Below, piece after piece: positions 23,386 to 41,677 of a stretch of 64,000 nt of DNA (the first letter of the stretch is position 1; each line of letters opens with the position of its first letter). The stretch is taken from NCBI RefSeq assembly GCF_940670685.1, contig NZ_OW711693.1, forward strand, positions 2,418,001-2,482,000. Direction: 5' to 3'. The position numbers were made by a program, and so were the translations under genes. Origin of the DNA: Anaeropeptidivorans aminofermentans (GTDB taxonomy: Bacteria > Bacillota > Clostridia > Lachnospirales > UBA5962). A model generated the notes under the pieces. That model was not told where the DNA came from and made no database searches. It was given only the letters and a program-made list of their open reading frames with translations.

Positions 23386-24888
23386 TTAGTAATACGCTGA
23401 AAAAACTTTGAAATAAATATTTACGTCCCCTTCTTTTGATACAGTTATTTTATCGATAATCTGCCTAAGCATCGTATTGTTTATATTCTGTGACGATATG
23501 ATGCAGCTGATGTCCTTAAATTTTTCATTTAGGATATTTTTTATGCTGTCGTTTTTGCCTAGGCTTTCTTTAATCAGCTCCAGTTCATTATTCAGCCTCT
23601 TTATTTCTTCATTCTGGTCTTTTGTATATTCTTTAAGCTCGCCTAAGGAAATAATCTCCGCTTCATACATATCCATATACTTTTTTTTGCTCTTCTTTAT
23701 CCTTTCTATTTCGCGTTTTATTTCCCTCTCCGTAATTATATCTGTATTGATGTTTTTATACTGCTTATCCAGCTCTTTTAAGATGTTTTGGGTAATGTTT
23801 TCCTTATCCTTTAGGATATTTAAAAAATACTTTTTTATTTCTTTAAGTAATATATCTTCGTCCACAACCACATTATTGGGGCAGCTATGAACCCCTCCTG
23901 TATTTCTTGTGGCGCATACCCATTTAATATATGTATTTTTATATTTTCTTTCGCACCTTCTAAAGGAGGCCCCGCAGTGTTCGCATTTTATCATTTTGCT
24001 GAAAGTATGCTTTTGTGAATTCCTTTCTTTTGTTCTTTTAAAGGCCTCTTTTCTGCTTCCCGTAATTCTTTTTGCCCTCTCAAACAGTTCATCAGAAATG
24101 AGCCTTAGTTCCGGTTTTTCCATAACAATCCATTGTTCTTTCTCAAGGCCTTTTCTTTCTCCTGTAAGAAAATCTTTTACTTCTTCTTTCCCGTTTATAA
24201 CCCTTCCTGTATATATGAGATTTCTTAAAAGGCGGCTTACTGCTATTTGAGTCCACTGAGCGTTTCGCTTTGTCTTTATATTTCTGGAATTAAGCTCCTG
24301 TGCAATTTTATTGGCTCCGAGATTTTTATTTACATACATGTCAAAAATTTCTTTCACTACTTCCGCCTCTGATTCATTTACCGTTAAATTAAAATAATCT
24401 CCCGGAGTTTTATCGTATCCGAAAACAAGATTAGGGACCCTCCCTTTTTCGGCGTTCACCTTTTTGCCGAACTTTATTCTTTTAGAAGTATTGTAGCTTT
24501 CCTCCTGAGCTATCGCCGAAAGCATTGTAAGCATAAACTCGGAACTGTCGGAAGATGTCTGGTCGTAATTAACAAATATTACTTTGATGCCTAAGGATTT
24601 CAACTGGCGTATGCTTGTCAAAAAATCCACTACATTTCTTGCAAGCCTCGAAATATCCTTTATAAGCACTACCTCAAACATCTGCTTATGAGCATCGGAA
24701 AGAAGCTGAATCAATTGATTTCTGTTTTTCATTCGTGTGCCGGTTTTGCCTTCATCGGCATATATTTTTATGAGGTCGTATCCGTTTTTTCTGGCATATT
24801 CTTCAAAAAAGCTCTGTTGGGTTTCTAAGCTGTCCAGCTGCTCGTCCTTATTGGTGGATACTCTCCCGTATGCAACAGCTTTTACCAT
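23386..24888 (-). CDS. Large serine recombinase
   Basis: Site-specific recombinase of the resolvase/invertase superfamily. N-terminal catalytic domain with YGRVSTNKDEQ (nucleophile Ser11) and IKDISRLARN (active-site arginine region), a Recombinase domain (about 170-280), and a zinc-ribbon starting CEHCGASFRRCERKYKNTY. A coiled-coil region rich in Lys/Glu follows (about 370-450). 500 residues, full length, and its start has AGGAGG five bases upstream. Unlike the second recombinase, its G+C content fits the host. No cargo or clear att sites were seen, so it may be a domesticated or stripped element. Confidence 0.92.
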   Translation of the reverse strand: MVKAVAYGRVSTNKDEQLDSLETQQSFFEEYARKNGYDLIKIYADEGKTGTRMKNRNQLIQLLSDAHKQMFEVVLIKDISRLARNVVDFLTSIRQLKSLGIKVIFVNYDQTSSDSSEFMLTMLSAIAQEESYNTSKRIKFGKKVNAEKGRVPNLVFGYDKTPGDYFNLTVNESEAEVVKEIFDMYVNKNLGANKIAQELNSRNIKTKRNAQWTQIAVSRLLRNLIYTGRVINGKEEVKDFLTGERKGLEKEQWIVMEKPELRLISDELFERAKRITGSRKEAFKRTKERNSQKHTFSKMIKCEHCGASFRRCERKYKNTYIKWVCATRNTGGVHSCPNNVVVDEDILLKEIKKYFLNILKDKENITQNILKELDKQYKNINTDIITEREIKREIERIKKSKKKYMDMYEAEIISLGELKEYTKDQNEEIKRLNNELELIKESLGKNDSIKNILNEKFKDISCIISSQNINNTMLRQIIDKITVSKEGDVNIYFKVFSAYY

Positions 24889-25883: not shown

Positions 25884-25966
25884 GCCCGAGTGATGGAATG
25901 GCAGACATGGCAGACTCAAAATCTGCTCCAAGCAATTGGGTGGGGGTTCGAGTCCCTTCTCGGGCA
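25884..25966 (+). tRNA. tRNA-Leu (anticodon CAA)
   Basis: Class II tRNA of 83 bases: acceptor GCCCGAG/CTCGGGC, discriminator A, anticodon stem GCAGA/TCTGC with loop CTCAAAA, a long variable arm, and GGTTCGAGTCC in the T arm. Anticodon CAA reads TTG. The integrated element begins about 27 bases after its 3' end. Confidence 0.96.
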
Positions 25967-25986
25967 TCGGAAAAGACATACTTTTC
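25963..25986 (+). terminator. Left half of the split tRNA-Leu terminator
   Basis: GGCATCGGAAAAGACATACT and following TTTC begin inside the tRNA 3' end. The complementary arm is not nearby but at 41020-41045, on the far side of the 15-kb element. The intact tRNA-Ser terminator at 50570-50626 has the same design (arm starting inside the tRNA end, AAAAGACATA core), which supports reading this as a half hairpin. Confidence 0.8.
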
Positions 25987-26045
25987 GCTAAGTCCACGGT
26001 ATCATAAGGACAATTTAGGGAAAGCAAACTGAATACGGAGCATAA

Positions 26046-26086
26046 AAGCACAGGGAGTCGAATTATCGACTCCCTGTGCTTTTATG
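26046..26086. terminator. Terminator inside the element's left end
   Basis: AAAAGCACAGGGAGTCGA and TCGACTCCCTGTGCTTTT form long perfect arms with a short loop. It can end the surface-protein transcript on the minus strand and tRNA-Leu transcription on the plus strand, replacing the terminator split by insertion. Confidence 0.9.
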
Positions 26087-26111
26087 AATATCTGTGATTA
26101 TTTCGTTTTTC

Positions 26112-29100
26112 TCACGCCGTTTTGTCCACCTCATATCCATCTACTTTTGTGTTTTTGGCAAGGGAGCCGTCCGCATAGAAGTAGTACCACTTGCCGCCGA
26201 TCTCCAGCCATTTCCCGGACACCATGATGCCATCCTTGGTGAAGTAGTAGCGTTTGTCGCTGATGTCCAGCCAGCCCACAGCGGCCTTGTTCCCGGAATA
26301 GTACCGCCAGTTGCCTCCGTCCTTCACCCAGCCGGTTTTTAGTGCGCCGGTGGTTTCAAAGAAATACTTCACGCCGTCGATGGTCTGTGTGCCGGTGAGG
26401 GATTTGCCGTCCTTGTAGTACATATACTGTCCATCGTCATTCAGCGCCCATCCCTGCGCCGTGGCTGGGTCGATGGTCAGCTTGATGTAGCGGTGGAGCA
26501 TGGCGCTGACTTCGGCGCGGGTGGCGTTGGATTTGGGATTAAACTTGTTATTCGTTTCGCCCATCATAATCCCTGCCTGTTGCATAGCTGTTACCGCTGT
26601 TTTATAGGTGCTGCCGATGCTGGAAGCATCCGCATAGGCGGTTGCTTCACGGGTCACAGGCAGCTTGTAGCCGGTGACCTTGGCATAATTTACAAAGATT
26701 ACTGCTATTTCCTCACGGGTGATCGCACGGTCAGGGGCAAACTGCTGGTTACCGATGCCCTGCACAACACCTTTCTTGTACGCCCATTCGATGTAGGGAC
26801 GGAATGCGCTGTCTGCCTTTACATCGGTGAAGCTGTTGGTGGTGTATGCCTTCACATCCACGCCTGCCAGTCTGCCGAGAGCCGTCACCAGCATCCCGCG
26901 GGTCATGGATGCATCGGGTGCAAAGGTTGTTTTTGATGTGCCGGAGAGAAGCCCCCTGCCGACCACATAGTCAATCGCTTCCTTGCCCCAATGGTTTCCG
27001 ATGTCGGTGAACTTGGCGCTTGGAGCCGTGTAGCCCACGCCATACACCGAGAAATGGCCGGTAGGGATCAGCAGGCTTCCGCTGTTTGCGTCATAGGCGG
27101 AAGTGTCGATGCGGATTGCCTTACCATTTGCGTCCACATACACGCCGAACAGATAGCCGACAGCCTCATTCCTGTCCGGTGTGTAGGGGATGGAAAGGGT
27201 GGCTGTGCCGCTGCCAAGGCTGGTTACGTTGACAGTTTTGCCGTCCTTGACATAACTGATGGTGATGCTATAAACCGGCCTGTTTCCGAGGAGGGCCTTT
27301 GCTTCTTTAGAGAGACCTGTCGCCGGAACGATGGTGATGCTGATATCACCGCCGCTTTGCTTCTGGATTTCCTGTAAAGCCTTCAAGTCAAAACTCACGT
27401 CTACCGGAGAACCGGCGAGTGTAAGGCTGGATACCCCCGCGCTCACAAGACTGTTCAGCGAGTTGCGGGACAGGGTTGCTGTAAAGGAAGTTGTTCCCTG
27501 CGGCAGAGCGACATTCAGCGCTACAGCAATGCCATTGACTGTCTTTCCCTGCGCCTTTGCGTCGGTCTGTGCCTTGGTGATGGCATCGGTTATTGATTTC
27601 TCCGGAATGGACGCATTTGCCGCGCCGTTTGCCCCAGTCGTGGCTGTAACAGAGACCGTCGCCGTAACAGGCTGGTCTGGCTTCTTTGCAGGCGTAGTGA
27701 TTGCCGGTGTGCCCGGCGTATAGGAATCACCACCACCAGAGCCGCCGCCACCGTTATAGCTCCAGCTTGCCGTAACCGTCAGATCAGCGGTCACGTTATC
27801 AAAGGATTTATCCCAGCCAGTAAATGTGTAGCTGCTGCGGCTGACTGTGGGAGCCGTCGCTGCACTGCCCTTGGCAACGGTCTGTATCAGCTCGCCGCCG
27901 CCTGTACGGGTACCGCCATTTAAGTTGAAGGTGATAGTATAGGTCTGTTCCGCAACAGTCAATGTTCCGTCTGTGCGGGCTGTAATGCTGTAATTATCCG
28001 TTGCCGTGCCGCCTGTGAGCGTTATGGTATAGCTGCCCGGCGTATTGCCATTGAAGGTCGGGCAAGCCAGCGCAGGTTCTGTACTCAAGGCATCCGCTTT
28101 GGTCTTTCCGGGAGCCAGATTGCCTACTGTATAGGTAAGCTCCGGCAGGCTACTGCCCTTAATAACCGATTTATGATCTGCGGTAAGGGTAATCTGCCGC
28201 TTTTCGATGGTGAAGGTGAGCACCTCCCTGCCTGCGTAGTTTGCGTTGCTATCTGGCACGGAAATGGTCAGCTTATATGCGCCTGCGTTTGTGGGTGCTG
28301 TGCTGCTACTGTAGTCTGCGCCGTCAGTAGATTCATACAGCCATTCCAGTTGATTTATGGGAAAACTGTGGCTGCAAGTCACCGTGCCGGTAGGTGCATA
28401 GAAAGTGCCGTCGTAGGTTTTATTGGCGGTTGTGATGCCTCCAATGGTTACCAGAGTTTTATCCGCGACCGTTACCTTGCGACTTACCGTGAGGTCGCTT
28501 GGCAAGGTAATCCATGCCGGAGGGGAGGAATAGTTGATGGTTCCGGTAAAGGTCTGCTCGTTGCCTACAGCCGTTCTGTCCAACGTTTCTCCGCCGTTCC
28601 AATCGACAGTATAGGCAATGCTTTGGCCTTCTACCAGGATATTACCGCTTGCAGGCAGGATGGTGCTTCCCAATTCAGCGGCTGTAGCGGAGCTGTCGCT
28701 GTTTATAACCACCAGAGTGTCTCCGAAGGTCGGATTCGCCGCCGTAACCGGGGTGACCGTGACGGTTATGCTCTTGGAGATGCTGTTTGCGTCAATGTTT
28801 TCGTTGCCGGTGAGGGTTCCGGTCACAGCGTATTCTGTGCCCTTAATATTGTAGGCGGTGGAAGTTTCCCATGTAATTGGCAGCACTGCCGTACCGCCAT
28901 CGGTGCTGACGTTCACACTTGAAGGCAGACCTGCCGCATCCACAACAGCTTGTGCAGTTGTGGCGGTGCGCATTTCATAGGCGGTTTTGTTTGCGTTGTC
29001 CACAGTCGTGGTGATCTCTGACACCTTGGCCTGCTCAATGGTGAAATGGACCGTGACCAGATCAAGGGAAAGCTCGTAGTTTCCACCCGCACTTAAATTG

Positions 29101-32100
29101 CCGAGGGAAATGCCATAGGTCCCCACGTTTTCCCCTGCTGCACGACTGAGATTGCCGGTGAAAGCCTCCGGAGCCAAGCCAGCGCCATTTGTAAAGGTCA
29201 ATATTGGGTCAATCTTGCCATATTTTTTGCTCTGACCGGAGTGGGGCATGATGGTGATTGGCTTGGGAGCAATGGTGTAGCTGATGTTTTTCGTGCCGTA
29301 AAAGCTGCCGATGCCGGTGATGGTGAGCGTCACCGTTCCGGCGTTTGTGCCGTCGCTTGCGCTCCCGTCTGCTACCGCAACAGTATAATCGGTGTCCTTA
29401 ACCAGTGTTTCGCCGTCAAAGGTCAAGGCTGGGATTTGCTCACTGCCGTTATAAATGCGAGGGGCTGTGTCTGCTGCGGCATACTGGATATCCCGTGCTA
29501 TCAGATATAATCCGCCGTCGCCGTTCTGCCCCGCAAGCCCTTTTAGCGTGGGCAGCTTACCCTCGGCGAATGTCCAAACGCCGCTGTCCCAGGCAGATGT
29601 ATTCCAATTCTCCGCCGTCGTCCAGAAGCTGTCGCCAAACAGGGCCTGCGATGTCAAATCCACACCGTCTTTTGCATTTAGACCCTTATTTGCCCATGTG
29701 CCGGGTATGCGGCTGAACGCATAGTTGTTCAAGAGGGTGTCGGAGGTGTTTTTTCCCACCACGCGCCCGAAATTGTATGCTCCTGCGTTGATAGAAGGGT
29801 TAAGTGCCACACAATTTTTCACGGTGCCGCTGCTGAGAGTGCCCAGCACACCGCCAACATACCCCTCCGGATCCGTACCCAGAACGCTGCCGGTACTATA
29901 GCAATTTTTCACGGTGCCGCTGCTAACGTCTCCCGCAACGCCACCGACATAGAGAACGCCTTTGATATTGCCGGTGCTATAGCAATCTTGCACAGTAGCT
30001 ACCCCAACTCCTCCCACAATGCCACCGACATTGAACCGTCCGGAAACGCTGCTGCCGCTATAGCATCGCCGCACCGTAGTAGCATTGTTTTCGAGATACC
30101 CCATTATTCCGCCAATATAGTCACCGCTGCCGGTTACGCTGCCGGAGCTATAGCAGTCTTGTACCGTACCGCTGGAGATGCGCCCTACTGTTCCTCCGAC
30201 ATTATCCGCACCGGATATGTTGCCGATCACGGCGCAGTTCTCTACTGCCGCACCCCAAGCATATCCAGCTACGCCGCCGACACGGTTATTTCCGATGACG
30301 CTTGCGTCGATGATTCTGATATTCTGCACTTTGCTATCGACATAGAGATAGCCAAATAAACCGATGCAATCAGCCGCCGACCGGTTGATAGTTAGCCCGG
30401 TAATGGTTTTGTTGTTGCCATTAAAGTTTCCCTTGAATTGTTTTGCAGAGGTGCCAATGGGCATCCAGCCCTCCCTACTTGCATAGCTGGAAAGGTCAAG
30501 GTCATTTTCCAGCCTGTAATACCTTCCAGAATCTGCATAAGGTGAGGTTCCCGCATTCACCAGCTCCGCCAGCTTGGCAAGGTCTGCGGCGGTTTTGATA
30601 AGGTAGGGGTCGCCCTCGCTTGTGCCTGCGCCCTCAAAGAAGCTCGCGCCCGCCGGGAGCAAGTGCGCAGGCATGGAGGCGTCCTGCCCCGCAATGCCCT
30701 TGAGGATGGGCAGCTTGCCGGGTGCTATTTCCCATACGGTGGTATTCCAGTTTGCCGTAAAGCCCGTATCTTGCGTCCAGAAGTCCGCCGCACTGATTTC
30801 GGCGGCGGTTTTGGATAACCCGTCTACGCTGGTTGCATCGTTGTCGATTGCTTCCGAGCCACCGTTCTTTAACACTACCACACCATCAAAAGCCAAATTG
30901 CCACGTAGAGTCCCTTGATTAAATAGTACTAACACGCGCTCGACACCGCCTGAACCACTGACTGAGGGGTTAAGTGCAGCGCAATTTTCTACCCTGGGCC
31001 AACCTTGGACGCCCGAACCTTGGGCTTGACCCGCTATACCGCCGGCTTTGTAGCTGTCAGAGACGACGCCGGTGCTGTAGCAGTTTTCCACCGTGCCAGC
31101 GATGACAACCCCCGCCACGCCGCCAGCTATTTCAGCCCCGGAGATATTGCCGGTGCTGTAGCAGTCTTGTACATTGCCGCCCACGTCTACCTTGCCCACC
31201 ACCCCACCGGCAGAACCCTTTTGGCCTGTGCTTATCCGAGAAATATTTCCGGTGCTATAACAGTTTCTCACTATACCATCAACGCATCCCGCCACACCGC
31301 CTCGATCTTGACTCGAACTCTCTCCTGCGCTGTTGACATCGCAGGTACTATAGCAGTATTCCACTGTGCTGCTGTAGCCCACATAACCGACCACACCGCC
31401 GACAGAGTCTAAAGCGGTGATATTGCCCATAGTGTAACAATTTTGCAATGTGGCGGCTTCCATGAAGCCTGCGATGCCGCCGACCCTCTTGCCGCCGTTG
31501 ATGTAGACACCGGTAACACCGAGGTTTTTTACTGCTCCTCCACTGCCTATACACCCGAATAGTCCTTGATACATGACGCCTTCAAGGACATTATTGATGG
31601 TTAAGTTAGCAATTGTATTACCGTTTCCGTCAAATGTGCCATTAAATTTCATGTCGTATGCGTTGCCAATGGGCATCCAGCCCTCCCCGGTGGCATAGCC
31701 GGAAAGGTCGAGATCTTTCATCAGTCTGTAGTGTGCGGCATTATAGCTTGCGTTCCCTGCGTTTACAAGCCCCGCCAGCTTGGCGAGCTGGGCGGGGGTG
31801 CTGATTTGATATGGGTTTTCGCTGGTGCCAGCGCCGAAGAAATTCGGGTCGCTGCCGTCCACAATATGTGCGGGCAGGGCAACTGCCGCGCCAAAGCCGG
31901 GGAGCTTGCCGTTTTCTATTGTCCAACCGTTTTCCGTGGTAAACCGTCCGCCCAGTGTGCCGTCCGCCTTGATTTCGGCGGCTATTTTGGATTCACCGTC
32001 CATCTGATCCGCACCCTCAACAAGGGGTTTTGCATCGCCATCCTCCGTCACCGTCATGCCGCCAAAGGCGATGTTGCTGGAAAGGGGGATGTCATCGGCA

Positions 32101-33653
32101 ATTCCCACCACGCGCCCGACATCGCCTGAACCACTGACCGAGGGGTTCATCGCGGCGCAGTTTTCCACCGTGCCACCGTAGACATACCCCGCCACGCCGC
32201 CGACATGGTTGCCTGTGCCGCTGACCGCGCCGGTGCTGTAGCAGTTTTTCACACTGCCGCCGTCAACATACTCCACATGCCCCGCCACGCCGCCAACAGC
32301 GCTCTCGCCGCTGACGCTGCCGGTGCTGTAGCAGTTTTCTATCGTGCCGCCAACAACTGCCCCTGCCACGCCGCCGACATCGCTGCCTCCGCTGACGCTA
32401 ACATTCACCAGCCCCAAGCCGCCCACCTTGCCGCCTGTGCCGACAAAACCGAAAAAGCCCTGCGCATCTTCGCCGCTGCGGTTGATGGTCAGATTGCTGA
32501 TCCTGTGGCCGCCGCCGTCAAAGGTGCCCTCGAATGAATAGGAGTCATTGCCAATTGGCACCCAGCCCTCACCGCTAGAGTATGCCGAAAGGTCGAGGTC
32601 GTTCATCAGCTTCAGACTGACCTTTGCGCCTGCATCGTTAAACAAAAACAGCTCCAAGCCGTTTTCCCGCACATTCACCAGCGCGGCAATCTCGGCAAGC
32701 TGCGCCGCCGTGATGATTTCCAGCGGGCTGGCGCTTGTACCGCCGCCCGCCATGCGGGACATCTCTCCGCCGGCTGACTGCGGAATATACACCGTGATGC
32801 GGGGCGGCTCCACGCCGTCCGCAACGCCGCAGCCCTCGCCCAAAACGGCGGTAAACACATAGAGCCCCCGTTGAGGATTTTTTTGGTCATAATCCTGTTC
32901 TGTATCCCATGTCACCGGGATTTGAACCGTTTCGCCCTCGACCGTACCGCTTACGATTTCCGGGAATTCCGGTGCGGTGGCGTTCTGCCAGCGGATATCC
33001 TCGGGCAAATCGTCAAAGGCCGTCACTGTGCCTATAATGGTAACCGCACCAACGGTCACGGTGATTGCCGGGACTTCCACGCCGCTGGCAAGGGTAAGTT
33101 CCTCCGGCAGCTCGGGAGTGAAAATATATGTACCCGCTGCTTCACCGTTGTATTCCGGCGATGAAGTCCATGTGACAGGCAGGGGGACGGTGATTTCCTT
33201 GGCACTGTCCACGGTTTTCTCCGTGGGTTCGGCTTCAGAGCTGTCCCCGATTTTTTCCGCGTCGGAGGGAGAGGCGATTTCATCTCCCTCGCTGTCGCTG
33301 ATTTCGGATTCCTCCATTTCTTCAACGCCAATCGCTGACCCGCTTACCGTATCGGCGCTGTCTGAATCCGAATCAGCGCCCCCTGAATCCAGCACCGCTT
33401 CTTCTTCCAAAGCCGCAAGCCGTACCGTTGCCGTCAGGGTATCCGGCAGCTTCAAATCCGCTTCGGATGTGCCAATCGGCACATTCTGAACTGCAATATC
33501 CCACTCCAGCGCCTCAAAGGCGGTTACCTCGCCGCTTGCGCCAATAGGGAATGAGCCTGTTTCAGCCAGCGCCGAGACAGGCGTCATACCCACAACCATG
33601 ATGACGGACAACACCATAGCCGTGAGCCTTTGAATTGCTTTCCTTTTGCTCAT
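26112..33653 (-). CDS. Giant secreted surface protein: GLUG, MBG, SLH and cell-wall-binding repeats
   Basis: 2513 residues, secreted and held on the cell surface. Signal peptide about residues 1-33 (cleavage after SALA), Ig-like region with an acidic Ser/Asp/Glu linker (about 90-145), then three large blocks (starting near residues 306, 620 and 1020), each opening with a module containing AQLA(K/E)LA, LDLS and a GxFDG/FxG pattern and continuing in many GLUG repeats of the type GGVAGxxxGGTVxNCYSTG. MBG-type (about 1400-1850) and InlB-like (about 1905-1975) domains follow, then three SLH domains (about 2214-2391) and glucan/choline-type wall-binding repeats to the end. Start ATG 33653 has GGAGG seven bases upstream. 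Divergent from a TetR gene. Likely an adhesin; the ligand is unknown. Repeat number may vary by recombination. Confidence 0.9.
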   Translation of the reverse strand: MSKRKAIQRLTAMVLSVIMVVGMTPVSALAETGSFPIGASGEVTAFEALEWDIAVQNVPIGTSEADLKLPDTLTATVRLAALEEEAVLDSGGADSDSDSADTVSGSAIGVEEMEESEISDSEGDEIASPSDAEKIGDSSEAEPTEKTVDSAKEITVPLPVTWTSSPEYNGEAAGTYIFTPELPEELTLASGVEVPAITVTVGAVTIIGTVTAFDDLPEDIRWQNATAPEFPEIVSGTVEGETVQIPVTWDTEQDYDQKNPQRGLYVFTAVLGEGCGVADGVEPPRITVYIPQSAGGEMSRMAGGGTSASPLEIITAAQLAEIAALVNVRENGLELFLFNDAGAKVSLKLMNDLDLSAYSSGEGWVPIGNDSYSFEGTFDGGGHRISNLTINRSGEDAQGFFGFVGTGGKVGGLGLVNVSVSGGSDVGGVAGAVVGGTIENCYSTGSVSGESAVGGVAGHVEYVDGGSVKNCYSTGAVSGTGNHVGGVAGYVYGGTVENCAAMNPSVSGSGDVGRVVGIADDIPLSSNIAFGGMTVTEDGDAKPLVEGADQMDGESKIAAEIKADGTLGGRFTTENGWTIENGKLPGFGAAVALPAHIVDGSDPNFFGAGTSENPYQISTPAQLAKLAGLVNAGNASYNAAHYRLMKDLDLSGYATGEGWMPIGNAYDMKFNGTFDGNGNTIANLTINNVLEGVMYQGLFGCIGSGGAVKNLGVTGVYINGGKRVGGIAGFMEAATLQNCYTMGNITALDSVGGVVGYVGYSSTVEYCYSTCDVNSAGESSSQDRGGVAGCVDGIVRNCYSTGNISRISTGQKGSAGGVVGKVDVGGNVQDCYSTGNISGAEIAGGVAGVVIAGTVENCYSTGVVSDSYKAGGIAGQAQGSGVQGWPRVENCAALNPSVSGSGGVERVLVLFNQGTLRGNLAFDGVVVLKNGGSEAIDNDATSVDGLSKTAAEISAADFWTQDTGFTANWNTTVWEIAPGKLPILKGIAGQDASMPAHLLPAGASFFEGAGTSEGDPYLIKTAADLAKLAELVNAGTSPYADSGRYYRLENDLDLSSYASREGWMPIGTSAKQFKGNFNGNNKTITGLTINRSAADCIGLFGYLYVDSKVQNIRIIDASVIGNNRVGGVAGYAWGAAVENCAVIGNISGADNVGGTVGRISSGTVQDCYSSGSVTGSGDYIGGIMGYLENNATTVRRCYSGSSVSGRFNVGGIVGGVGVATVQDCYSTGNIKGVLYVGGVAGDVSSGTVKNCYSTGSVLGTDPEGYVGGVLGTLSSGTVKNCVALNPSINAGAYNFGRVVGKNTSDTLLNNYAFSRIPGTWANKGLNAKDGVDLTSQALFGDSFWTTAENWNTSAWDSGVWTFAEGKLPTLKGLAGQNGDGGLYLIARDIQYAAADTAPRIYNGSEQIPALTFDGETLVKDTDYTVAVADGSASDGTNAGTVTLTITGIGSFYGTKNISYTIAPKPITIMPHSGQSKKYGKIDPILTFTNGAGLAPEAFTGNLSRAAGENVGTYGISLGNLSAGGNYELSLDLVTVHFTIEQAKVSEITTTVDNANKTAYEMRTATTAQAVVDAAGLPSSVNVSTDGGTAVLPITWETSTAYNIKGTEYAVTGTLTGNENIDANSISKSITVTVTPVTAANPTFGDTLVVINSDSSATAAELGSTILPASGNILVEGQSIAYTVDWNGGETLDRTAVGNEQTFTGTINYSSPPAWITLPSDLTVSRKVTVADKTLVTIGGITTANKTYDGTFYAPTGTVTCSHSFPINQLEWLYESTDGADYSSSTAPTNAGAYKLTISVPDSNANYAGREVLTFTIEKRQITLTADHKSVIKGSSLPELTYTVGNLAPGKTKADALSTEPALACPTFNGNTPGSYTITLTGGTATDNYSITARTDGTLTVAEQTYTITFNLNGGTRTGGGELIQTVAKGSAATAPTVSRSSYTFTGWDKSFDNVTADLTVTASWSYNGGGGSGGGDSYTPGTPAITTPAKKPDQPVTATVSVTATTGANGAANASIPEKSITDAITKAQTDAKAQGKTVNGIAVALNVALPQGTTSFTATLSRNSLNSLVSAGVSSLTLAGSPVDVSFDLKALQEIQKQSGGDISITIVPATGLSKEAKALLGNRPVYSITISYVKDGKTVNVTSLGSGTATLSIPYTPDRNEAVGYLFGVYVDANGKAIRIDTSAYDANSGSLLIPTGHFSVYGVGYTAPSAKFTDIGNHWGKEAIDYVVGRGLLSGTSKTTFAPDASMTRGMLVTALGRLAGVDVKAYTTNSFTDVKADSAFRPYIEWAYKKGVVQGIGNQQFAPDRAITREEIAVIFVNYAKVTGYKLPVTREATAYADASSIGSTYKTAVTAMQQAGIMMGETNNKFNPKSNATRAEVSAMLHRYIKLTIDPATAQGWALNDDGQYMYYKDGKSLTGTQTIDGVKYFFETTGALKTGWVKDGGNWRYYSGNKAAVGWLDISDKRYYFTKDGIMVSGKWLEIGGKWYYFYADGSLAKNTKVDGYEVDKTA

Positions 33654-33787
33654 ACCGTTTCCTCCATTTCGTATTCTTAAAAACCTTGTTCCGTAATGAA
33701 CAGACCCATTTACCTGTCTTATGAAAATACAGAGAGTTCCGCACAATCACTTGAATTCTGATTTAATCAGTGATACACTAATTTTAA

Positions 33788-33816
33788 TAACTTAATTTAC
33801 AAACCTAATTTAGTTA
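33788..33816. promoter_or_regulatory. Candidate TetR operator between surface protein and TetR gene
   Basis: TAACTTAATT (33788-33797) and AATTTAGTTA (33807-33816) form an imperfect inverted repeat with 10-base arms, with CTAATTTAG nested at 33805-33813. It stands in the AT-rich divergent promoter region, where a TetR dimer could control both directions. Confidence 0.5.
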
Positions 33817-33866
33817 CTTAGATTATTTTACGGTACTTTCCTTAAAAAATCAAGAGGAGAAGAAGC

Positions 33867-34490
33867 ATGGAGGATAAAAAAACAGACAAGCGAAAAGCGC
33901 AGGGCGCCGAAACAAAAAGAAAGCTGATTGAAATTTCAAAACGGCTTTTTACGGAGCGCAGCTTTTCCGAGGTTGGTGTCGAGGATATCACTGATGAGGC
34001 CGGGATTACGAAGGGCGCATTCTATGTGCATTTTGCGTCTAAGGATGCGCTGATTGCCCTGCTGATTGCCGATTACACCGCACGCACGGATGCGGACTAC
34101 AAAGCGGTGTTTGATACGCTTCCCCCTAATATGCCTGCCTCCGGAGTGCTGCTTGCTTTAACCGAAAAAATAGCCGATGTGCTGACGGGCGACATCGGCT
34201 ATGATAATATTAAAAAAATCTATCAAATTCTGCTGACAGGGGTGGTGGACGCCAAGGCCGTCAAAAGCTATGACAGAGAGTTGTATACACTGTTTTATGG
34301 CATATTGGAACAGGGAATCCACAATGGAGAGTTTCAGAGTGATCTGCCGGTAGAGGTGCTATCACGGCACTTTGTGATGGCGATTCGGGGCATTTGCATC
34401 GACTGGTGCATCCAATACCCGAATGTTGACTTGAAGGCGCAGTCGCTGGAGCATTGCCAGATGCTGATGCAGGGATTGCAAAACGAATAG
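33867..34490 (+). CDS. TetR-family regulator, paralog 1
   Basis: 207 residues. The N-terminal helix-turn-helix (RKLIEISKRLFTERSFSEVG, then VEDITDEAGITKGAFYVHF, residues about 18-60) is classical TetR. The C-terminal ligand domain is all-helical. AGGAG precedes the ATG. It closely resembles the protein encoded at 34667-35287 throughout, so the two arose by duplication; they are convergent. Divergent from the surface-protein gene with an operator-like inverted repeat between, which suggests control of that gene. Ligand unknown. Confidence 0.93.
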   Translation: MEDKKTDKRKAQGAETKRKLIEISKRLFTERSFSEVGVEDITDEAGITKGAFYVHFASKDALIALLIADYTARTDADYKAVFDTLPPNMPASGVLLALTEKIADVLTGDIGYDNIKKIYQILLTGVVDAKAVKSYDRELYTLFYGILEQGIHNGEFQSDLPVEVLSRHFVMAIRGICIDWCIQYPNVDLKAQSLEHCQMLMQGLQNE

Positions 34491-34557
34491 CCTCATCATC
34501 TTTTTGACTTCCGGTCCCTGTTAGAACGCACCCAAAGTTCGATAAGTATTTAGAAGA

Positions 34558-34604
34558 AAAAAGACCATGCTCGTCTGCTAAAATTGCAGGGAGCACAGTC
34601 TTTT
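34558..34604. terminator. Terminator between the two TetR genes
   Basis: AAAAGAC and GTCTTTT arms with an inner TGCTC/GAGCA and TGC/GCA stem form an imperfect hairpin between the two convergent regulators. Confidence 0.7.
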
Positions 34605-34666
34605 GTTTTTAATGTGTATTGTTTTTTCTGCAAAACCAGAGCTGGGGATAAGAACCAACCGGTTTC

Positions 34667-35287
34667 TCAAACAGTAATCCCTTCAATCAACAGTCTGCAA
34701 TGCTCTACGGATTGTTCTTTCAGGTCAAAATCGGGATAGCGGATACACCATTCAAAGCTGATGCCCCGAAGCGCCGCAACGAAATGGCGTGCCAGTGTTT
34801 CGGCGGACAATGTGCTTTTTAGTTCTCCCTGACCAATTCCTTTCTCCAGGATGCCGTGAAACAGCAAATACAATTCCCGCCCATAGCCTTTTACCGCTTC
34901 GGTATCCACTGTTCCCGCCAGCAGCATCTGGTAAACCTTTTTCATATTCTCACAGCCGATTGTCTCTATAAGGACTTCAGCTATTTTCTCAGTCAGAGCC
35001 AAAAGCACATTAGATGTAGGCATATCAGCAGGCAGCGCTTCCAAAAACGCCTTATAGTCCGTATCGGCGCGGGAGGCATAATCCGCAATTACCATTGCGA
35101 TGAGGGCATCTTTAGATTCAAAATGCACATAGAACGCACCTTTGGTAATCCCGGCTTCGTCGGTGATATCCTCAACCATGACATCGGCATAATTATGTTC
35201 CTTAAACATTCTTTCCGCGATTTCATATAGCTTCTTTTTTGTTTCGGCGCCCTGCACCTTTCTTTTATCCGGTTTTTTCTGTCTCAT
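34667..35287 (-). CDS. TetR-family regulator, paralog 2
   Basis: 206 residues with the same layout and much the same sequence as paralog 1: KKLYEIAERMFKEHNYADVM, VEDITDEAGITKGAFYVHFE and a matching C-terminal domain including EHCRLLIEGI. Ribosome binding site and leader (AGAGGAGAAAAACT) also resemble those of paralog 1. A separate palindrome upstream at 35351-35370 suggests it binds a different operator and may regulate itself. Confidence 0.93.
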   Translation of the reverse strand: MRQKKPDKRKVQGAETKKKLYEIAERMFKEHNYADVMVEDITDEAGITKGAFYVHFESKDALIAMVIADYASRADTDYKAFLEALPADMPTSNVLLALTEKIAEVLIETIGCENMKKVYQMLLAGTVDTEAVKGYGRELYLLFHGILEKGIGQGELKSTLSAETLARHFVAALRGISFEWCIRYPDFDLKEQSVEHCRLLIEGITV

Positions 35288-35350
35288 AGTTTTTCTCCTC
35301 TTGAAAATCTAAAAAAAGTAGCCTATAACAATCAAAGATTATAACCCTAT

Positions 35351-35370
35351 TTAGAAAAACTGTTTTCTAA
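35351..35370. promoter_or_regulatory. Palindrome upstream of TetR paralog 2
   Basis: TTAGAAAAACTGTTTTCTAA has 8-base perfect arms around a 4-base centre, about 65 bases before the start codon. Size and place suit a TetR-type operator. Confidence 0.6.
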
Positions 35371-35487
35371 CCTGAGTATAGCACTTGATGCGCTATGAAT
35401 CAAGCGACCTAATTTATGCGGATAACATCGCCAGTACAAGACATACTGAACCAACAAAACGTTCTATTGTTTTCACATACCTTCCGT

Positions 35488-36405
35488 TTACCTGTTGTTC
35501 AGCTTCGCCTCATATTCCGTCAGGTCAAATACCTTTTTCTCAGCCTTGGCCTTTAAGTAGTCAGGCAGCGTCTCATCCCGAAGCTTTTCCGCAAAGTCTG
35601 CCCACTCGGTGAATTCCGGCTTGCTCATGGTCTTTTTCAGCACGCGGGCGTAATATTTCTTGTAGGCGCGCTGGTGCAGCTTCCAGACATCGTTGCTTTC
35701 AGTTTTTTCCTTAAAGCTTCTGGCGGCGCCGAGCTCACGGCAGGTCTGCCCGCCCTCGAAAACACTGTCGCAATATTCATAGTGAAAGCCTTTTTCCAGC
35801 AGAAAATATTGTCCGCAGAGCTTACACTGTTTGGGAACGCAGCCCTTTAGGATGCCTTTGAAAAAATCCGTGTAGAGAAAATCCAGCAGCCGCGTAAAGG
35901 TCATGCGTTCAAACAACGCCGCTTTTCCGTTTTCATCCTCCAAAAGCAGATACTGAAGACTGGAAACTGCCGCCGTCCGCTGCTCCGACGCACCCATGGT
36001 TTTGTCGGCTACAAAAGAACCCATGCCGTTCTTGGCAATCTGTTGGATAAAGCTCTTGTCTTTTTTCAAGCTTACATCCTTCAAAAAAACGCGGTAACAC
36101 CCCAGCAGTTCCAAGTCCTCCAGTAGGGCGGCGTACTCCCCTTCGGTCGCGCCGCTCAGTCTGTCCGGGTTGGGAAAATCCCGAAACAGGGGCATCTCCA
36201 AAATTATTTCATTTATCCTGTCTGTGCCGCAGCCTTGTGCCGCGGCACTTTTATATTCCCCCATATCATAATTCAAAAAGGCAGTGAAAAGCTCGTTGTA
36301 CTTGTAGCTCCGCCTGTTTATTTCAATATGCGTCTCCCCGAAAAGAACATCAAACGAAAAGAAGCCGGTATCGTCCGGAAACAGGTCTTTAAAAAACAGC
36401 GCCAT
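35488..36405 (-). CDS. Zinc-ribbon protein, DUF6076-like, unknown function
   Basis: 305 residues. A cysteine cluster near residues 195-230 (PKQCKLCGQYFLLEKGFHYE, then YCDSVFEGGQTC) looks like a treble-clef zinc site. The C-terminal part is rich in basic and aromatic residues (HQRAYKKYYARVLKK). The pattern fits the DUF6076 group found with clostridial mobile elements, but this assignment is from memory and tentative. GAGGTG precedes the ATG. It is divergent from the RepA-like ATPase gene. DNA binding is possible; no function is known to me. Confidence 0.7.
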   Translation of the reverse strand: MALFFKDLFPDDTGFFSFDVLFGETHIEINRRSYKYNELFTAFLNYDMGEYKSAAAQGCGTDRINEIILEMPLFRDFPNPDRLSGATEGEYAALLEDLELLGCYRVFLKDVSLKKDKSFIQQIAKNGMGSFVADKTMGASEQRTAAVSSLQYLLLEDENGKAALFERMTFTRLLDFLYTDFFKGILKGCVPKQCKLCGQYFLLEKGFHYEYCDSVFEGGQTCRELGAARSFKEKTESNDVWKLHQRAYKKYYARVLKKTMSKPEFTEWADFAEKLRDETLPDYLKAKAEKKVFDLTEYEAKLNNR

Positions 36406-36554
36406 AGGCTCACCTCAATAGATAATGGATTTCATGCAGTAGAGTATATACATATACTATCTCATTTTCTATTTACAAAGTCAAGAGAGTCTGTTAGCAT
36501 AACGATAGATAATTTAGTCATAACACTCATTATCTACAGGGAGGTGGATGAGCA

Positions 36555-37607
36555 ATGCTAAAGAAATTAGAAACCATGGATGCGGAAACCCTGATGACCA
36601 CACCCATGGAGCCGATCAGGTTTATTGTAAGCGGATTAATTCCGCAGGGGCTGCATATCCTTGCAGGCTCTCCGAAAGTCGGCAAGAGCTGGCTGGCGCT
36701 CTGGATTTGTCTGCAGGTAACAAAGGGAGAACCGGTGTGGGGGTTCGAAACCCGAAAGTGCGAGGTGCTCTATCTCTGTCTGGAGGACAGCTTCGCCCGC
36801 ATCCAAAGCAGATTGTTTGAAATTACGGAAGAAGCTCCACCCACTTTACACTTTGCTATTATGAGCGACGCCATCGGAAACGGTCTGGAGCTTCAGATTG
36901 AGAATTTCCTTGCAGAGCATCCCTGCACGGGATTGATTGTCATTGATACCCTGCAAAAGGTTCGCAAAACGGTTTCCTCCAATGTGAATCCCTATGCCGC
37001 CGACTATGATGACATTTCTGCTCTCAAGGGGCTGGCAGACCAGCACAGGCTTGCTATCGTACTCGTCCACCATCTACGGAAAAGTGCTGACAACGATCCG
37101 CTGAACATGATATCCGGCACCACGGGAATTGCGGGCGGCACGGACAGCAGCTTCATCCTGCAGAAAGAAAAAAGAACAGAAACCACGGCAACTCTCATCT
37201 GCACCGGCAGGGATATTGAAAGCCGGGAACTGTTTTTGGGGTTCAACAAAGATACTTTCCTTTGGGAGCTGCTCCAACCGATTGAAGCGGCAGAGCACAA
37301 AGCGGACGAGGTGATTTTACTTCTCTCTGACTTTATGAAATCGGCGGTTGTGTTCACAGGAACCGCTACCGAGCTTGCGGAGCGGCTCAAGCTGTTTGGC
37401 GGAACGGAATATCTCCCGGCGGTTCTGAAGAAGAAAATCATGAAACACATGGACTATCTTCAGAAAAACAAGATTTCCTATTCCGATCAGCGCAGCTTTG
37501 AACGGCGGGAGTTTACCCTCCGTTATGACGGCAATGACGGCATGACGGCAGAAAACGCCCCCACAGATTTGCCGTCTTTGCCGTCACAGCCGTCAGCAGA
37601 GGTATAA
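36555..37607 (+). CDS. RepA-like AAA ATPase (AAA_25 family)
   Basis: 350 residues. Walker A GSPKVGKSW around residue 39, Walker B TGLIVIDTLQKV, and a RecA-like core with VLVHHLRKSADNDPLNMISG, matching hexameric plasmid RepA/DnaB-like helicases of the AAA_25 type. Such proteins are common in clostridial integrative elements near the recombinase, and may act in replication or processing of the excised circle. The C-terminal part (about 255-330) resembles a winged helix. GGAGG lies ten bases before the start. A hairpin-rich non-coding region follows directly. Confidence 0.85.
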   Translation: MLKKLETMDAETLMTTPMEPIRFIVSGLIPQGLHILAGSPKVGKSWLALWICLQVTKGEPVWGFETRKCEVLYLCLEDSFARIQSRLFEITEEAPPTLHFAIMSDAIGNGLELQIENFLAEHPCTGLIVIDTLQKVRKTVSSNVNPYAADYDDISALKGLADQHRLAIVLVHHLRKSADNDPLNMISGTTGIAGGTDSSFILQKEKRTETTATLICTGRDIESRELFLGFNKDTFLWELLQPIEAAEHKADEVILLLSDFMKSAVVFTGTATELAERLKLFGGTEYLPAVLKKKIMKHMDYLQKNKISYSDQRSFERREFTLRYDGNDGMTAENAPTDLPSLPSQPSAEV

Positions 37608-37985
37608 TCGCTCCACGTTGCCCCTTGTGTCGCCCTGTGTGCCGGTTTTGACCGGCAGGATGGCATTCCTGCACCGAACCAGAGTAAAACCGCAGCGTGA
37701 GGGCTTTGTGCCGAGCGTTTGGGAAAGAGCACCGGCTCCTGAATCCGGAGTTCTCCACGGTAGAAAGGATGAGCAGGATAAAGTCAGGTGACCGCAAGCG
37801 GCCCCCTGACGGTCACAGCGTCCCGCAGTGCGGGGCGCAGAGCGGCATTGTACGGTGGTCGGACAAGGTGCCCTAAATCAAAATGGGTATTCCTTCGGGA
37901 AGTCCGGGGGGCAGAAAACACCGGGATGCCAGCCGCTATCCCGGATGTCCACAACGGAAAATAAGCGAAAAAGGAGATTTTCACA
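37608..37985. other. Hairpin-rich non-coding block, candidate origin of transfer or replication
   Basis: About 380 G+C-rich bases without a gene. Hairpins seen: GCCGGT/ACCGGC (37641-37656), CAGGA/TCCTG (37656-37671), GTGACCG/CGGTCAC (37788-37816), CCCGC/GCGGG (37822-37834), TTCC-TTCG-GGAA near 37893-37904, CCGGGAT/ATCCCGG (37921-37944). It lies between a RepA-like ATPase and ribbon-helix-helix genes, the usual place for an oriT or replication origin in such elements. No relaxase gene is present in the element. Confidence 0.45.
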
Positions 37986-38417
37986 ATGAATGACAGCAAC
38001 AAAGCCAAAGTAGGGATTCACATGAGGCCGGAGCTCATCGCCCGGGTGGATGCGGAATACCCTCTGTACGATTACCCCAGCCGCAGTGCCTTTATCGGTG
38101 CGGCGACCGAGTTCTATCTCGGCTATCTTCACAGCCAGAGCGACGCCGATTACATGAGTAAAACCACCCTCGCGTTTCTGGAGGATCAGGTCACAAAGCT
38201 GGATGCCAAGATCTGCCGTCAGTTGTTTCGCCTGTGCGTAGAACTGTCCATGGTGGCCCATGTGACCGCTGCTATTGTCCCCGGAGCCAATGAGGAAACG
38301 CTGAAACGGCTGCGCACCAAGTGCGTCAAGGATGTGAAAAACACCATCGGCAACATCCGGTATGACAGCATTTACGCTCACCAGCACGCCATGACAGAGG
38401 CGGATGACTATGAGTAA
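37986..38417 (+). CDS. Ribbon-helix-helix protein, element-encoded
   Basis: 143 residues. The N-terminal 45 residues (KVGIHMRPELIARVDAEYPL, then SRSAFIGAATEFYLGYL) fit a ribbon-helix-helix DNA-binding fold. The helical C-terminal part (about 60-135) probably mediates assembly. AAGGAG precedes the ATG. It overlaps the next gene by about 14 bases. Likely binds the hairpin block just upstream or regulates this gene set; MobC-like roles are possible. Confidence 0.7.
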   Translation: MNDSNKAKVGIHMRPELIARVDAEYPLYDYPSRSAFIGAATEFYLGYLHSQSDADYMSKTTLAFLEDQVTKLDAKICRQLFRLCVELSMVAHVTAAIVPGANEETLKRLRTKCVKDVKNTIGNIRYDSIYAHQHAMTEADDYE

Positions 38418-38844
38418 GACAGAAAAAATAACGGTATCGCTGCCAAGCGATACCATCAGACTGGCCGATGAAAAATATTTGGAGTTTGGCTTTTCCAACC
38501 GCTCAGAGCTCATCAATGCCGCCATCCGTGAGTACCTCAGCCGTGATCTGATGCGGCAGTTTACCGGTGAGCTGGCGAGTGTCTACCAGAAAATCGAGCG
38601 TAGTGAAATCAAGGAGCTGGAGCAGCATCTCTCCAAGCTCTCCTACAAAATCGCCGTGGAGCTGGCACAAATCTATATGCTGCTGGCGACCGCCATGGAG
38701 CTTCCCTATGATGTTGACCGCAGCCTGCGGGGGAAAGCAGTCAAGTAGGTCAACCATCTGAAGGGCTTTGTACCCATCTCCAAGGCTGTGAAGGAAACCG
38801 AAGGAATCACAGGGACAGAGGAAGAATCCGAAGATTTCTTTTGA
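38404..38844 (+). pseudogene. Second ribbon-helix-helix protein, interrupted by in-frame TAG
   Basis: Begins with a clear ribbon-helix-helix domain (KITVSLPSDTIRLADEKYLE, then SNRSELINAAIREYLSRDL) and runs 114 codons to TAG at 38746-38748. The same frame then stays open for another 31 codons (VNHLKGFVPISKAVKETEGI and on) to TGA at 38842-38844, ending in an acidic tail. A GAG-to-TAG change is the simplest explanation. The DNA-binding half is intact, so the shortened product may still work. Starts: ATG 38404 or ATG 38410. Confidence 0.65.
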
Positions 38845-38926
38845 CATGAACCCTTGCCGCCCTTCTCCGGCGGCAGTACATACCCCGGCACACAGTCAGG
38901 GGAAAACAAAAAAGGAGAAGTGCTAT

Positions 38927-39172
38927 ATGAAAGAAAACAAATGCAACGGCGTCTATGCCGCGAGCAACCCCCACATCCTATCCCCCTTCGGCTATCCTGT
39001 TCTCACCTTTGACGACACGCTGGCCGTTATCTCCGAGGAGGGATTCTTCCGGGAAAGAGAGATGGTTCTGGAGGGAAAGCCCTTCAAAGTCCGTTCCTTC
39101 TTCCGGCCGGTTTCTTCTGAAACCGCTACGGACAAACTGCTCCGCCTCATTGATGCGGGGCAAAATCGGTAA
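38927..39172 (+). CDS. Small conserved-type hypothetical protein of the element
   Basis: 81 residues (MKENKCNGVYAASNPHILSP at the start, ending LLRLIDAGQNR). The start ATG 38927 has AAGGAG eight bases upstream; an in-frame ATG at 38846 lies before that site and is rejected. No domain recognised. It lies between the ribbon-helix-helix genes and the recombinase in the same direction and is probably co-transcribed. Its place suggests a recombination directionality factor, but this is only a guess from position. Confidence 0.6.
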   Translation: MKENKCNGVYAASNPHILSPFGYPVLTFDDTLAVISEEGFFREREMVLEGKPFKVRSFFRPVSSETATDKLLRLIDAGQNR

Positions 39173-39255
39173 TCTTTTCTTTGGCATAGACTTGTGCGAA
39201 CCGTTGCGGTATGATGTGTACTACCGTATTCGGTTTGCCGGAAAGGAGCTTACAG

Positions 39256-40923
39256 ATGAAACAGGCAAACGAAAAATACACGATTTTATACGCAAGACTC
39301 AGCCAGGACGACGGCAGTCAGGGAGACTCCAACAGCATCCAGAACCAGAGGATGATGCTGGAGAAGTACGCAAAGGACAATGGATTTGAGAATGTGAAAT
39401 TCCTGTATGACGACGGTGCGTCCGGCACAAATTTCAACCGGCCTGCCTTTCAAGAGGCAATGGAGCTCATCGAAAACGGAGAGGTTGCAACCTTTATCGT
39501 CAAGGATATGAGCCGGTTGGGTAGGGAGTATTTAGAGGTCGGCAGGCTGACAGAAATCGTGTTCCCAAGCTACGGCGTGCGGTTTATCGCCATGAATGAC
39601 GGCGTGGACAGCCTCTACGGTGATAATGAATTCACCCCGTTCAAAAATATCATCAACGAATGGTACGCGAAAGACTGCAGCAAAAAGGGAAAAGCCGCCG
39701 CTAAAATCAAAGCGGAAAGCGGAGCGAGGGTTGGCTCAAGACCGCCCTTCGGGTATCAGAAAGACCCTGCCGACCCCAAGCGCAAAATCATTCCCGATGA
39801 AGAAACCGCGCCCATTGTCAAGTACATTTTCTCTCTATGCATGAATGGAAAGGGCCCTACTCAGGTTGCGGTGCAGCTTCGAGAGGAGCAGATTCCCATC
39901 CCCGCCTATTACTATCACAAGAAAAACGGAGTCAAGATTGTCGGCTTCGATCCTGTCCAACCGTACTACTGGTCATCCACAACCGTAGGAAAGATATTGG
40001 AGGATGAGGTTTACCTCGGACACACCATCAACCTCAAATATACCACCTTGTCCTACAAAAACAAGAAACGTGTCAAGCGCCCTGTGTCGGAAAGAATTCG
40101 GATTGAGAACACTCACGAGCCGCTGATAGACCAGAGCACTTGGAATATCGTGCAGGACATCCGCAGGCACAAGCGCCGTCCGGCCAAGATGGCGGAGCAG
40201 AATATGTTCTCCGGACTGATTTACTGCAAGGACTGCGGAAAGGCGATGGTGCTCAGTCGGGCTCATACTATGGACGCAGTCAAAAACAACTTCCAATGCG
40301 CCACCTACAGGAAAAGAGGCAAGGAAACCTGTTCCGGGCATTACATCCGGGAATCCCAGCTCACCGCCATCCTTCTGGACGATCTCTGCAGGGTGACCCA
40401 CTTCGCGAGGCAGAACGAACTGCTCTTCGCGAAACACATAACCCAAAAGAACGGCACTGAAATCCGACGTGAGATTGCCCGTGTCGAGCGTGAACTGGAA
40501 TCGCTCAAACGGAGGGACACGGAGCTGAGCGCATTATTCAAAAGGCTGTATGAAGACAATGTTCTTGGCAAAATCCCAAATGAGGTGTTCCGAAAGCTCA
40601 GCGACGACTACTTTGCCGAGCAAAAAGAAATCCAGACCGCCATCCCGAAGAATGAGGGCGAACTGGAAAAGCTGAAGGGCTCGGTGGCCAATGTCAGCGC
40701 CTTCATTGAAAAGGCGAAGCAATATACGGAAATCAATGAGCTCACCGCTGAAATACTGAACCTCTTTATTGAGCGGGTGGAGGTCGGTGAACGTGAGGGA
40801 AAATGGTCTCACACTGCCCCGCAGGAAATCAATATTTACTACAGGGACATTGGCTTGATGGACAGCGTGACCGAACAGAAAACAGAGCAGGAAGCACAGG
40901 GCGATTCACCAGAGGTCGCATAA
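39256..40923 (+). CDS. Large serine recombinase of the integrative element
   Basis: 555 residues; expected to insert and excise the element. Catalytic domain with ILYARLSQDDG (nucleophile Ser16) and VKDMSRLGREYLEVG, then a Recombinase domain (about 175-290), a zinc-ribbon beginning CKDCGKAMVLSRAHTM, and a coiled coil (about 400-490). The pattern is that of Tn4451 TnpX/Tn5397 TndX-like enzymes. AGGAG nine bases before ATG 39256 fixes the start. It reads toward the right end and stops about 100 bases from it. Confidence 0.94.
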   Translation: MKQANEKYTILYARLSQDDGSQGDSNSIQNQRMMLEKYAKDNGFENVKFLYDDGASGTNFNRPAFQEAMELIENGEVATFIVKDMSRLGREYLEVGRLTEIVFPSYGVRFIAMNDGVDSLYGDNEFTPFKNIINEWYAKDCSKKGKAAAKIKAESGARVGSRPPFGYQKDPADPKRKIIPDEETAPIVKYIFSLCMNGKGPTQVAVQLREEQIPIPAYYYHKKNGVKIVGFDPVQPYYWSSTTVGKILEDEVYLGHTINLKYTTLSYKNKKRVKRPVSERIRIENTHEPLIDQSTWNIVQDIRRHKRRPAKMAEQNMFSGLIYCKDCGKAMVLSRAHTMDAVKNNFQCATYRKRGKETCSGHYIRESQLTAILLDDLCRVTHFARQNELLFAKHITQKNGTEIRREIARVERELESLKRRDTELSALFKRLYEDNVLGKIPNEVFRKLSDDYFAEQKEIQTAIPKNEGELEKLKGSVANVSAFIEKAKQYTEINELTAEILNLFIERVEVGEREGKWSHTAPQEINIYYRDIGLMDSVTEQKTEQEAQGDSPEVA

Positions 40924-40971
40924 AACGGCAACGGCAGACAGCGGAAATCCACTGCCTGCCGATACATACCG

Positions 40972-41015
40972 CCCCACTTCACCACGGTTTAGAAAATGTC
41001 CCTATCACACCGTGG
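40972..41015. other. Right end of the element (attachment site half)
   Basis: CCACGGT near 40982 and ACCGTGG at 41009-41015 form an inverted repeat around TTAGAAAATGTCCCTATCAC. The outer segment 40998-41015 is the inverted counterpart of the left end at 25994. Large serine recombinase att sites commonly have such imperfect symmetry. Confidence 0.6.
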
Positions 41016-41019
41016 GGAA

Positions 41020-41045
41020 GGGGAAAGTATGTCTTTTCTGATGCC
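41020..41045 (+). terminator. Right half of the split tRNA-Leu terminator
   Basis: GGGGAAAGTATGTCTTTTCT plus GATGCC complements 25963-25986 (GGCATC, GAAAAGACATAC, TTT) with one mismatch and a G-U pair. Removing the element would give a hairpin with loop GCTAAG directly behind tRNA-Leu. Confidence 0.8.
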
Positions 41046-41133
41046 GATAAAGTATGGTATTATGAGTATAGGATTTCCGCTCTAATCAATTAGATAAATA
41101 AGAATTTAACGTAAAAATGAAAGGGTGGTAAAA

Positions 41134-41559: not shown

Positions 41560-41631
41560 ATTTCCAGTTTGCCGGTCGGACTATAAGTAATGCCCTCCCA
41601 TGCTGTCAAATCTTTTTTACATTGTTTCTCC

Positions 41632-41677
41632 AAAGAAACAGACAGATTTCTATAAAGAAATTTGTCTGTTTCTTTTT
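41632..41677. terminator. Terminator after the VOC gene
   Basis: AAAGAAACAGACA and TGTCTGTTTCTTT arms with an inner ATTTCT/AGAAAT stem, followed by T-rich sequence. Confidence 0.88.

Follow-up and report, generated by a model that had tools for sequence, protein, structure and literature searches.

DUF4368 marks a multi-targeting clade of large serine recombinases (PMC10083194), to which the recombinases of Tn4451/Tn4453 (TnpX) and the TndX-like enzymes belong. A surface protein has been described as the cargo of a clostridial element in CTn1 of Clostridioides difficile, which carries CD0386 (PMC3158075).

Here, we analyzed 64,000 nt of the Anaeropeptidivorans aminofermentans genome (NZ_OW711693.1, positions 2,418,001 to 2,482,000 of the forward strand), referred to below as the window; all coordinates are those of the window. 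The window contains an element that resembles Tn4451/Tn4453 and the TndX-like DUF4368 clade in its DUF4368 recombinase, its TnpW-like gene, its presence in more than one copy per genome and its Clostridia hosts (PMC5704250, PMC10083194). It differs in that it carries a surface protein gene instead of a resistance gene and appears to be inserted in terminator hairpins rather than in loosely chosen sites. Moreover, the window copy is without a relaxase of its own, the hallmark of integrative mobilizable elements of the Tn4451 kind. What it has in common with CTn1 is a stalk-like surface protein carried by a clostridial element that has a serine recombinase (PMC3158075). However, CD0386 is LPXTG anchored and built of Cna B repeats, whereas the window protein has SLH domains, choline-type repeats and GLUG blocks, and its gene is accompanied by a divergent TetR gene.

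RESULTS

Extent and gene content of the element

The element (Table 1) has a G+C content of 52.3% (25990-41017), as opposed to 37.8% and 36.4% on its two sides. The giant cargo gene takes up 7.5 kb of the 15.03 kb, in agreement with the original prediction that a single gene makes up half of the element. The recombinase carries Resolvase, Recombinase, zinc ribbon and DUF4368 domains, all over the Pfam cutoff, which places it in the multi-targeting clade. No relaxase was matched in the window element by Pfam, and the relaxases of its relatives find no counterpart there. Defense cargo was ruled out because PADLOC returned no defense match, and a plasmid or phage origin was rejected, since plasmid and phage records gave no more than weak partial matches and viral contigs gave no match.

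Table 1. Features of the element and of its insertion site in the window
Feature	Position	Strand	Basis
tRNA-Leu, anticodon caa, host gene adjoining the insertion	25884..25966	+	ARAGORN, Rfam
tRNA-Leu terminator hairpin, left arm, split by the element	25963..25989		Inverted repeat
Mobile element of 15,028 bp with an AAG core on each side	25990..41017		Ends compared with second copy (L085); G+C step
Left end of element, AAGTCCACGGTATCATAAGGACAATTT...	25990..26040		Common to L085, L040, L050, L054
Perfect hairpin of 21 bp, probably a bidirectional terminator supplied by the element (inferred function)	26041..26086		Repeat search
Cargo gene, GLUG/MBG/SLH/choline-repeat surface protein, predicted secreted, 2513 aa	26112..33653	-	ORF, Pfam
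Choline-binding-type wall repeats	26115..26468	-	Pfam, structure model
Three SLH domains, motifs TRGM, TREE, TRAE	26469..27023	-	Pfam, structure model
Pre-SLH module, 235 residues, without Pfam family, kept in homologues	27024..27728	-	
Big/MBG-type and List_Bact repeat domains	27729..29483	-	Pfam
GLUG block 3, predicted repetitive all-strand fold	29499..30629	-	AlphaFold2
GLUG block 2	30699..31808	-	Motif positions, block comparison
GLUG block 1	31854..32678	-	Motif positions, block comparison
Signal peptide, MSKRKAIQRLTAMVLSVIMVVGMTPVSALA	33561..33653	-	Read from sequence by eye
Putative divergent promoter/operator region	33654..33866		Synteny, palindrome
TetR-family regulator 1	33867..34490	+	Pfam TetR_N
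TetR-family regulator 2	34667..35287	-	Pfam
DUF6076 protein	35488..36405	-	Pfam
AAA_25 ATPase, RepA/DnaB-like	36555..37607	+	Pfam
Small protein, no known family, 92% identical in Syntrophomonas zehnderi	37986..38417	+	
Ribbon-helix-helix protein, 90% identical in S. zehnderi	38404..38748	+	
TnpW-like protein	38846..39172	+	Pfam TnpW, just below cutoff (22.6 vs 25 bits)
Large serine recombinase, intact, 570 aa	39211..40923	+	Pfam
Second AAG core and right arm of tRNA-Leu terminator hairpin	41018..41045		

A second, different large serine recombinase of 500 aa (23386-24888, negative strand) adjoins tRNA-Leu on the left; it was rejected as the element's own since it lies outside both ends. To the right of the element, positions 41125 to 43941 hold small separate genes for VOC/3-dmu-9_3-mt, DUF998, cupin and GNAT acetyltransferase proteins, and a GNAT gene is also found to the left of the second copy (L085:2127-2600).

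A second copy in the same genome

The chromosome has another copy of the element at a different location (L085, at about G000:C1:80676-94905), bounded by the same ends; this copy, too, has no relaxase. At the nucleotide level, the two copies are 87% identical over 70 nt at the left end and 91% identical from the TnpW-like gene through the right end. Their recombinases are 93% identical, their giant proteins about 71% and their AAA_25 proteins 52%. The last two values are no closer than those of the copies from other species, which led us to reject a recent duplication within the genome; judging from these identities, independent arrival or exchange of cargo is likelier. Integration has occurred at several different sites, two in this genome and more among related elements.

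Probable insertion into terminator hairpins

Positions 25963-25989 and 41019-41045 form a 27-nt inverted repeat with 89% complementarity. Alignment of both copies placed the junctions at an AAG core, the left reading ...GCTAAGTCCACGG and the right CCGTGGGGAAGGGG.... Read together, the free ends of the element make up a symmetrical site, CCGTGGGG-AAG-TCCACGG, and the joint of the excised circle would read CCGTGGGGAAGTCCACGG; neither a circular form nor an empty site was seen.

The rejoined window flanks fold into a hairpin of -39.4 kcal/mol, as opposed to -11.7 kcal/mol for shuffled sequences, and this hairpin begins at the last bases of tRNA-Leu. Hairpins were likewise obtained for the second copy (-23.7 kcal/mol versus -6.1 for shuffles), the element of Ruminiclostridium cellobioparum (-19.3 versus -9.1) and a Pelotomaculum contig that keeps both ends (L050; -21.9 versus -10.7). 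All four insertions with both ends and hairpin-testable flanks thus yielded a hairpin on rejoining, and a fifth misfits: the left flank of the S. zehnderi element completes no hairpin and is an exception to the pattern. When arms were swapped between unlike sites, the folding energies were -7 to -12 kcal/mol. A value of -19 kcal/mol was reached by 14 of 500 joins made at random over 15 kb in the window; taken by itself, the weakest site is therefore not decisive.

In the host genome, the hairpin type AAAGACAT..ATGTCTTT occurs nine times, and the loop of several of these hairpins resembles CYAAGG. The tRNA-Leu gene itself was rejected as the target because the tRNA is intact, the second copy is not at a tRNA, and both copies lie in the same hairpin type. 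Insertion of this recombinase group in the loops of intrinsic terminators is the best reading of these sequences, and a sequence rule and a palindromy rule would both fit. A literature search, mostly outside subscription journals, returned nothing fitting on serine recombinases with terminators.

Two free hairpins of the same type are present in the window (50569-50627 and 51774-51825), one of them directly behind tRNA-Ser; they are possible unused landing sites.

Relatives and exchange between families

The elements of S. zehnderi (L120/L121) and R. cellobioparum (L042/L125) have the same gene order as the window element: the giant gene or genes on the negative strand, TetR on the positive, DUF6076 on the negative, then AAA_25, small genes and the recombinase on the positive strand. 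Together with the second copy, which has the same ends, this order bears out the original prediction that the giant gene is cargo of a mobile element. The AAA_25 proteins of the two species are 88 to 89% identical to that of the window and their recombinases 58 to 59%, whereas RecA is only 63 to 70% identical for these species; across all twelve genomes compared, RecA identity to the host is 63 to 71%. Therefore, genes of the element have moved between families. The proposed exchange of surface traits is upheld to this extent, by sequence alone, in that the package crosses family boundaries.

The view of the cargo as unusual was overstated, CD0386 on CTn1 being a precedent (PMC3158075). It is further weakened by the fact that, for most homologues of the protein, the 10 kb examined contained no serine recombinase. 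The same fact could mean that the pair of TetR and giant genes is not a specialized cargo but a chromosomal surface locus of long standing in Firmicutes, once picked up by a serine-recombinase element; in other species, TetR-giant pairs with no nearby serine recombinase are found at L038, L039, L055 and L064, so the pair is distributed more widely than the element. However, four elements from three species carry the pair within one and the same backbone, the pair is far more alike between families than RecA would predict, and L122 has kept a left-end-like sequence behind the giant gene despite the loss of the recombinase. We consider an old locus acquired once to be rather unlikely.

In R. cellobioparum, MobC and a relaxase lie between the ATPase and the recombinase, in the position of the two small genes of the window element; the S. 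zehnderi element has no relaxase. Two further relatives (G055 and G317) have a similar backbone, with recombinases 57 to 58% identical to that of the window, but differ in their cargo and have a relaxase; their right ends are followed by T-runs, and their left ends were not found. The backbone is probably an integrative element with exchangeable cargo that was once mobilizable. The distribution of the relaxase, missing from the window element, the second copy and S. zehnderi and present in R. cellobioparum and these two relatives, could also indicate an immobile remnant whose recombinase is inactive or whose transfer was lost with the relaxase. We find this doubtful, given that the recombinase is intact over all 570 aa and that two copies at different sites share right-hand modules as similar as noted above (91%). 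An element that may still move is the reading we retain.

Giant genes of the SLH-anchor type also occur in other settings. An island in the same genome (L086-L088, 1.423-1.474 Mb) has five such genes, followed by a sigma-like gene, a helicase gene and three tandem large serine recombinase genes. Giant SLH genes lie beside two or three tandem recombinase genes in Marasmitruncus (L052/L127), Lacrimispora defluvii (L046), a Clostridia MAG (L128) and G027 (L093). Directly behind one giant gene of the island is a remnant like the right end of the element (L087:158-177, about 1.44016 Mb), which would fit arrival of this giant gene by way of a related element.

TetR genes and the shared promoter region

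Two TetR genes lie in inverted arrangement, with TetR1 divergent from the cargo gene. The TetR proteins of other loci are 73 to 80% identical to TetR2 as opposed to 63 to 68% to TetR1; TetR1, beside the cargo gene, is the more diverged of the two, and the inverted TetR2 is nearer to the usual regulator. Divergent orientation of a TetR gene and a giant gene was found in eleven loci. In eight of the eleven intergenic regions, an exact TRACC-N15-GGTTA palindrome occurs 80 to 84 nt from the TetR start, and in seven of these eight it directly follows a sigma-A-like promoter. Each shuffled region has a probability of 0.00025 of containing such a palindrome; the loci are, however, homologous and therefore not independent. 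The region in the window has a changed palindrome, TAACT..AGTTA (read by eye). The dedicated TetR control originally predicted for the cargo gene is favored by divergent synteny in the eleven loci and the palindrome in eight, and is complicated by the diverged palindrome here. We infer from these sequences that TetR probably controls the cargo gene.

The two TetR genes form a 502-nt inverted repeat with 70% identity (33817-35337).

Domains and predicted folds of the cargo protein

The cargo open reading frame begins at the ATG at 33653; the mechanical start is a TTG located 31 codons upstream. Since the positive strand of 26112-33653 has many stops, the frame lies on the negative strand, a detail absent from the original prediction of a 2513-residue GLUG/SLH protein, which is otherwise confirmed. 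Matches over the Pfam cutoff comprise SLH (three domains, E value of 1e-32), Glug (2e-28) and MBG_2 (two domains, 3e-19), as well as Choline_bind_3, Choline_bind_1 and List_Bact_rpt. The GLUG blocks (residues about 326-600, 616-985 and 1009-1385) are 36 to 43% identical in pairwise comparisons and are therefore old repeats rather than recent copies. The predicted layout of three near-repeated GLUG blocks, MBG-type domains and three SLH domains was borne out by Pfam and block comparison, and so was a second type of anchor, which Pfam assigns to choline-binding-type repeats. A signal peptide and three SLH domains, the marks of an SLH surface protein, are both present.

The SLH model matches the SLH domains of Sap from Bacillus anthracis, with a TM score of 0.82 by target length, and the model of the choline-type repeats matches CbpJ, CbpF and LytA. 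The host has CsaB (TIGR03609, over the curated cutoff, in one frame with a glycosyltransferase-like part), which fits SLH anchoring. Binding to the wall through both SLH domains and choline-type repeats is predicted. The cargo protein shares with Sap an SLH triplet, a matching predicted fold and a host that has CsaB, but adds a second set of wall-binding repeats, a GLUG/MBG display region and its location on an element. The C-terminal repeats belong to a family common with the C termini of clostridial toxins; a toxin was rejected because Pfam and NCBIfam found no toxin catalytic domain.

Structure prediction, suggested earlier as a check on the GLUG blocks, was run on block 3 and gave a strand-rich repetitive fold (AlphaFold2, pLDDT of 89.5, pTM of 0.88). 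Its best PDB matches are 3n6z and IgA1 proteases, the latter of which also share the GLUG motif. Similar repetitive folds are known in polysaccharide lyases and phage tailspikes, and the outer GLUG part could accordingly be an enzyme, or a partner of something other than a surface, instead of an adhesive fiber. This is improbable in our view: Pfam, NCBIfam (E value of 0.001) and PDB sequence searches of the cargo protein returned neither a peptidase nor a lyase nor any further catalytic family, and, unlike the IgA1 proteases, the protein has no catalytic metalloprotease domain (Pfam and NCBIfam, E value of 0.001). Pfam found no known adhesive or ligand-binding domain either; the anchor and repeated stalk-like domains are present. 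With no catalytic domain found, an adhesin or matrix-binding fiber is the most likely role.

The pre-SLH module (27024-27728) is predicted with good confidence to be a mixed alpha/beta domain.

A constant anchor and a variable display region

The last 546 residues, which comprise the pre-SLH module, the SLH triplet and the choline repeats, are 52 to 88% identical to those of the window protein in 38 sequences, and, with a single exception, the SLH triplet of the compared homologues is 66 to 91% identical. The GLUG part of the homologues is 30 to 79% identical or absent. By sequence comparison, the cargo couples a conserved wall anchor with a display region that varies far more. Given a constant anchor and a variable outer part, an exchange of elements would exchange surface properties. 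A search of the literature, again mostly outside subscription journals, returned nothing fitting on GLUG with SLH.

DISCUSSION

The observations are jointly best explained, with good probability, by a wall-anchored protein with an outward GLUG display that is the TetR-switched cargo of a DUF4368 recombinase element lodged in a terminator loop. A TndX/TnpX-like large serine recombinase would move the element with its cargo gene by joining the end site, the palindromic CCGTGGGG-AAG-TCCACGG, to an intrinsic-terminator hairpin at its loop; in the window, this hairpin is the terminator of tRNA-Leu. Such insertion would break no coding gene, and the element itself brings hairpins, located close to its ends. 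The TetR protein encoded divergently from the giant gene probably acts as a repressor, binding the promoter region common to both genes and switching the giant gene. The product would be exported and held on a pyruvylated wall polymer by its three SLH domains, with the choline-type repeats in addition, and the GLUG blocks would be displayed outward, most likely as an adhesin or matrix-binding fiber.

Insertion in terminator loops and the pattern of constant anchor and variable display are additions to the original prediction. A broader view is that a family of serine-recombinase elements lands in intrinsic-terminator hairpins, splitting them and supplying its own, and that one of its lineages has specialized in moving giant surface proteins between families of Firmicutes, the proteins being TetR switched and combining a standard wall anchor with outer parts that can be interchanged; we regard the case for this generalization as evenly balanced.

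Terminator loops offer a testable rule for insertion sites, which would help to predict them, and would be a harmless place to land. In a family of very large, unstudied proteins, a portable wall anchor can now be told apart from variable outer domains. Since closely related packages occur in distantly related anaerobes, the element probably helps them to swap surface features, and it provides a concrete way in which surface properties could pass between anaerobes of different families.
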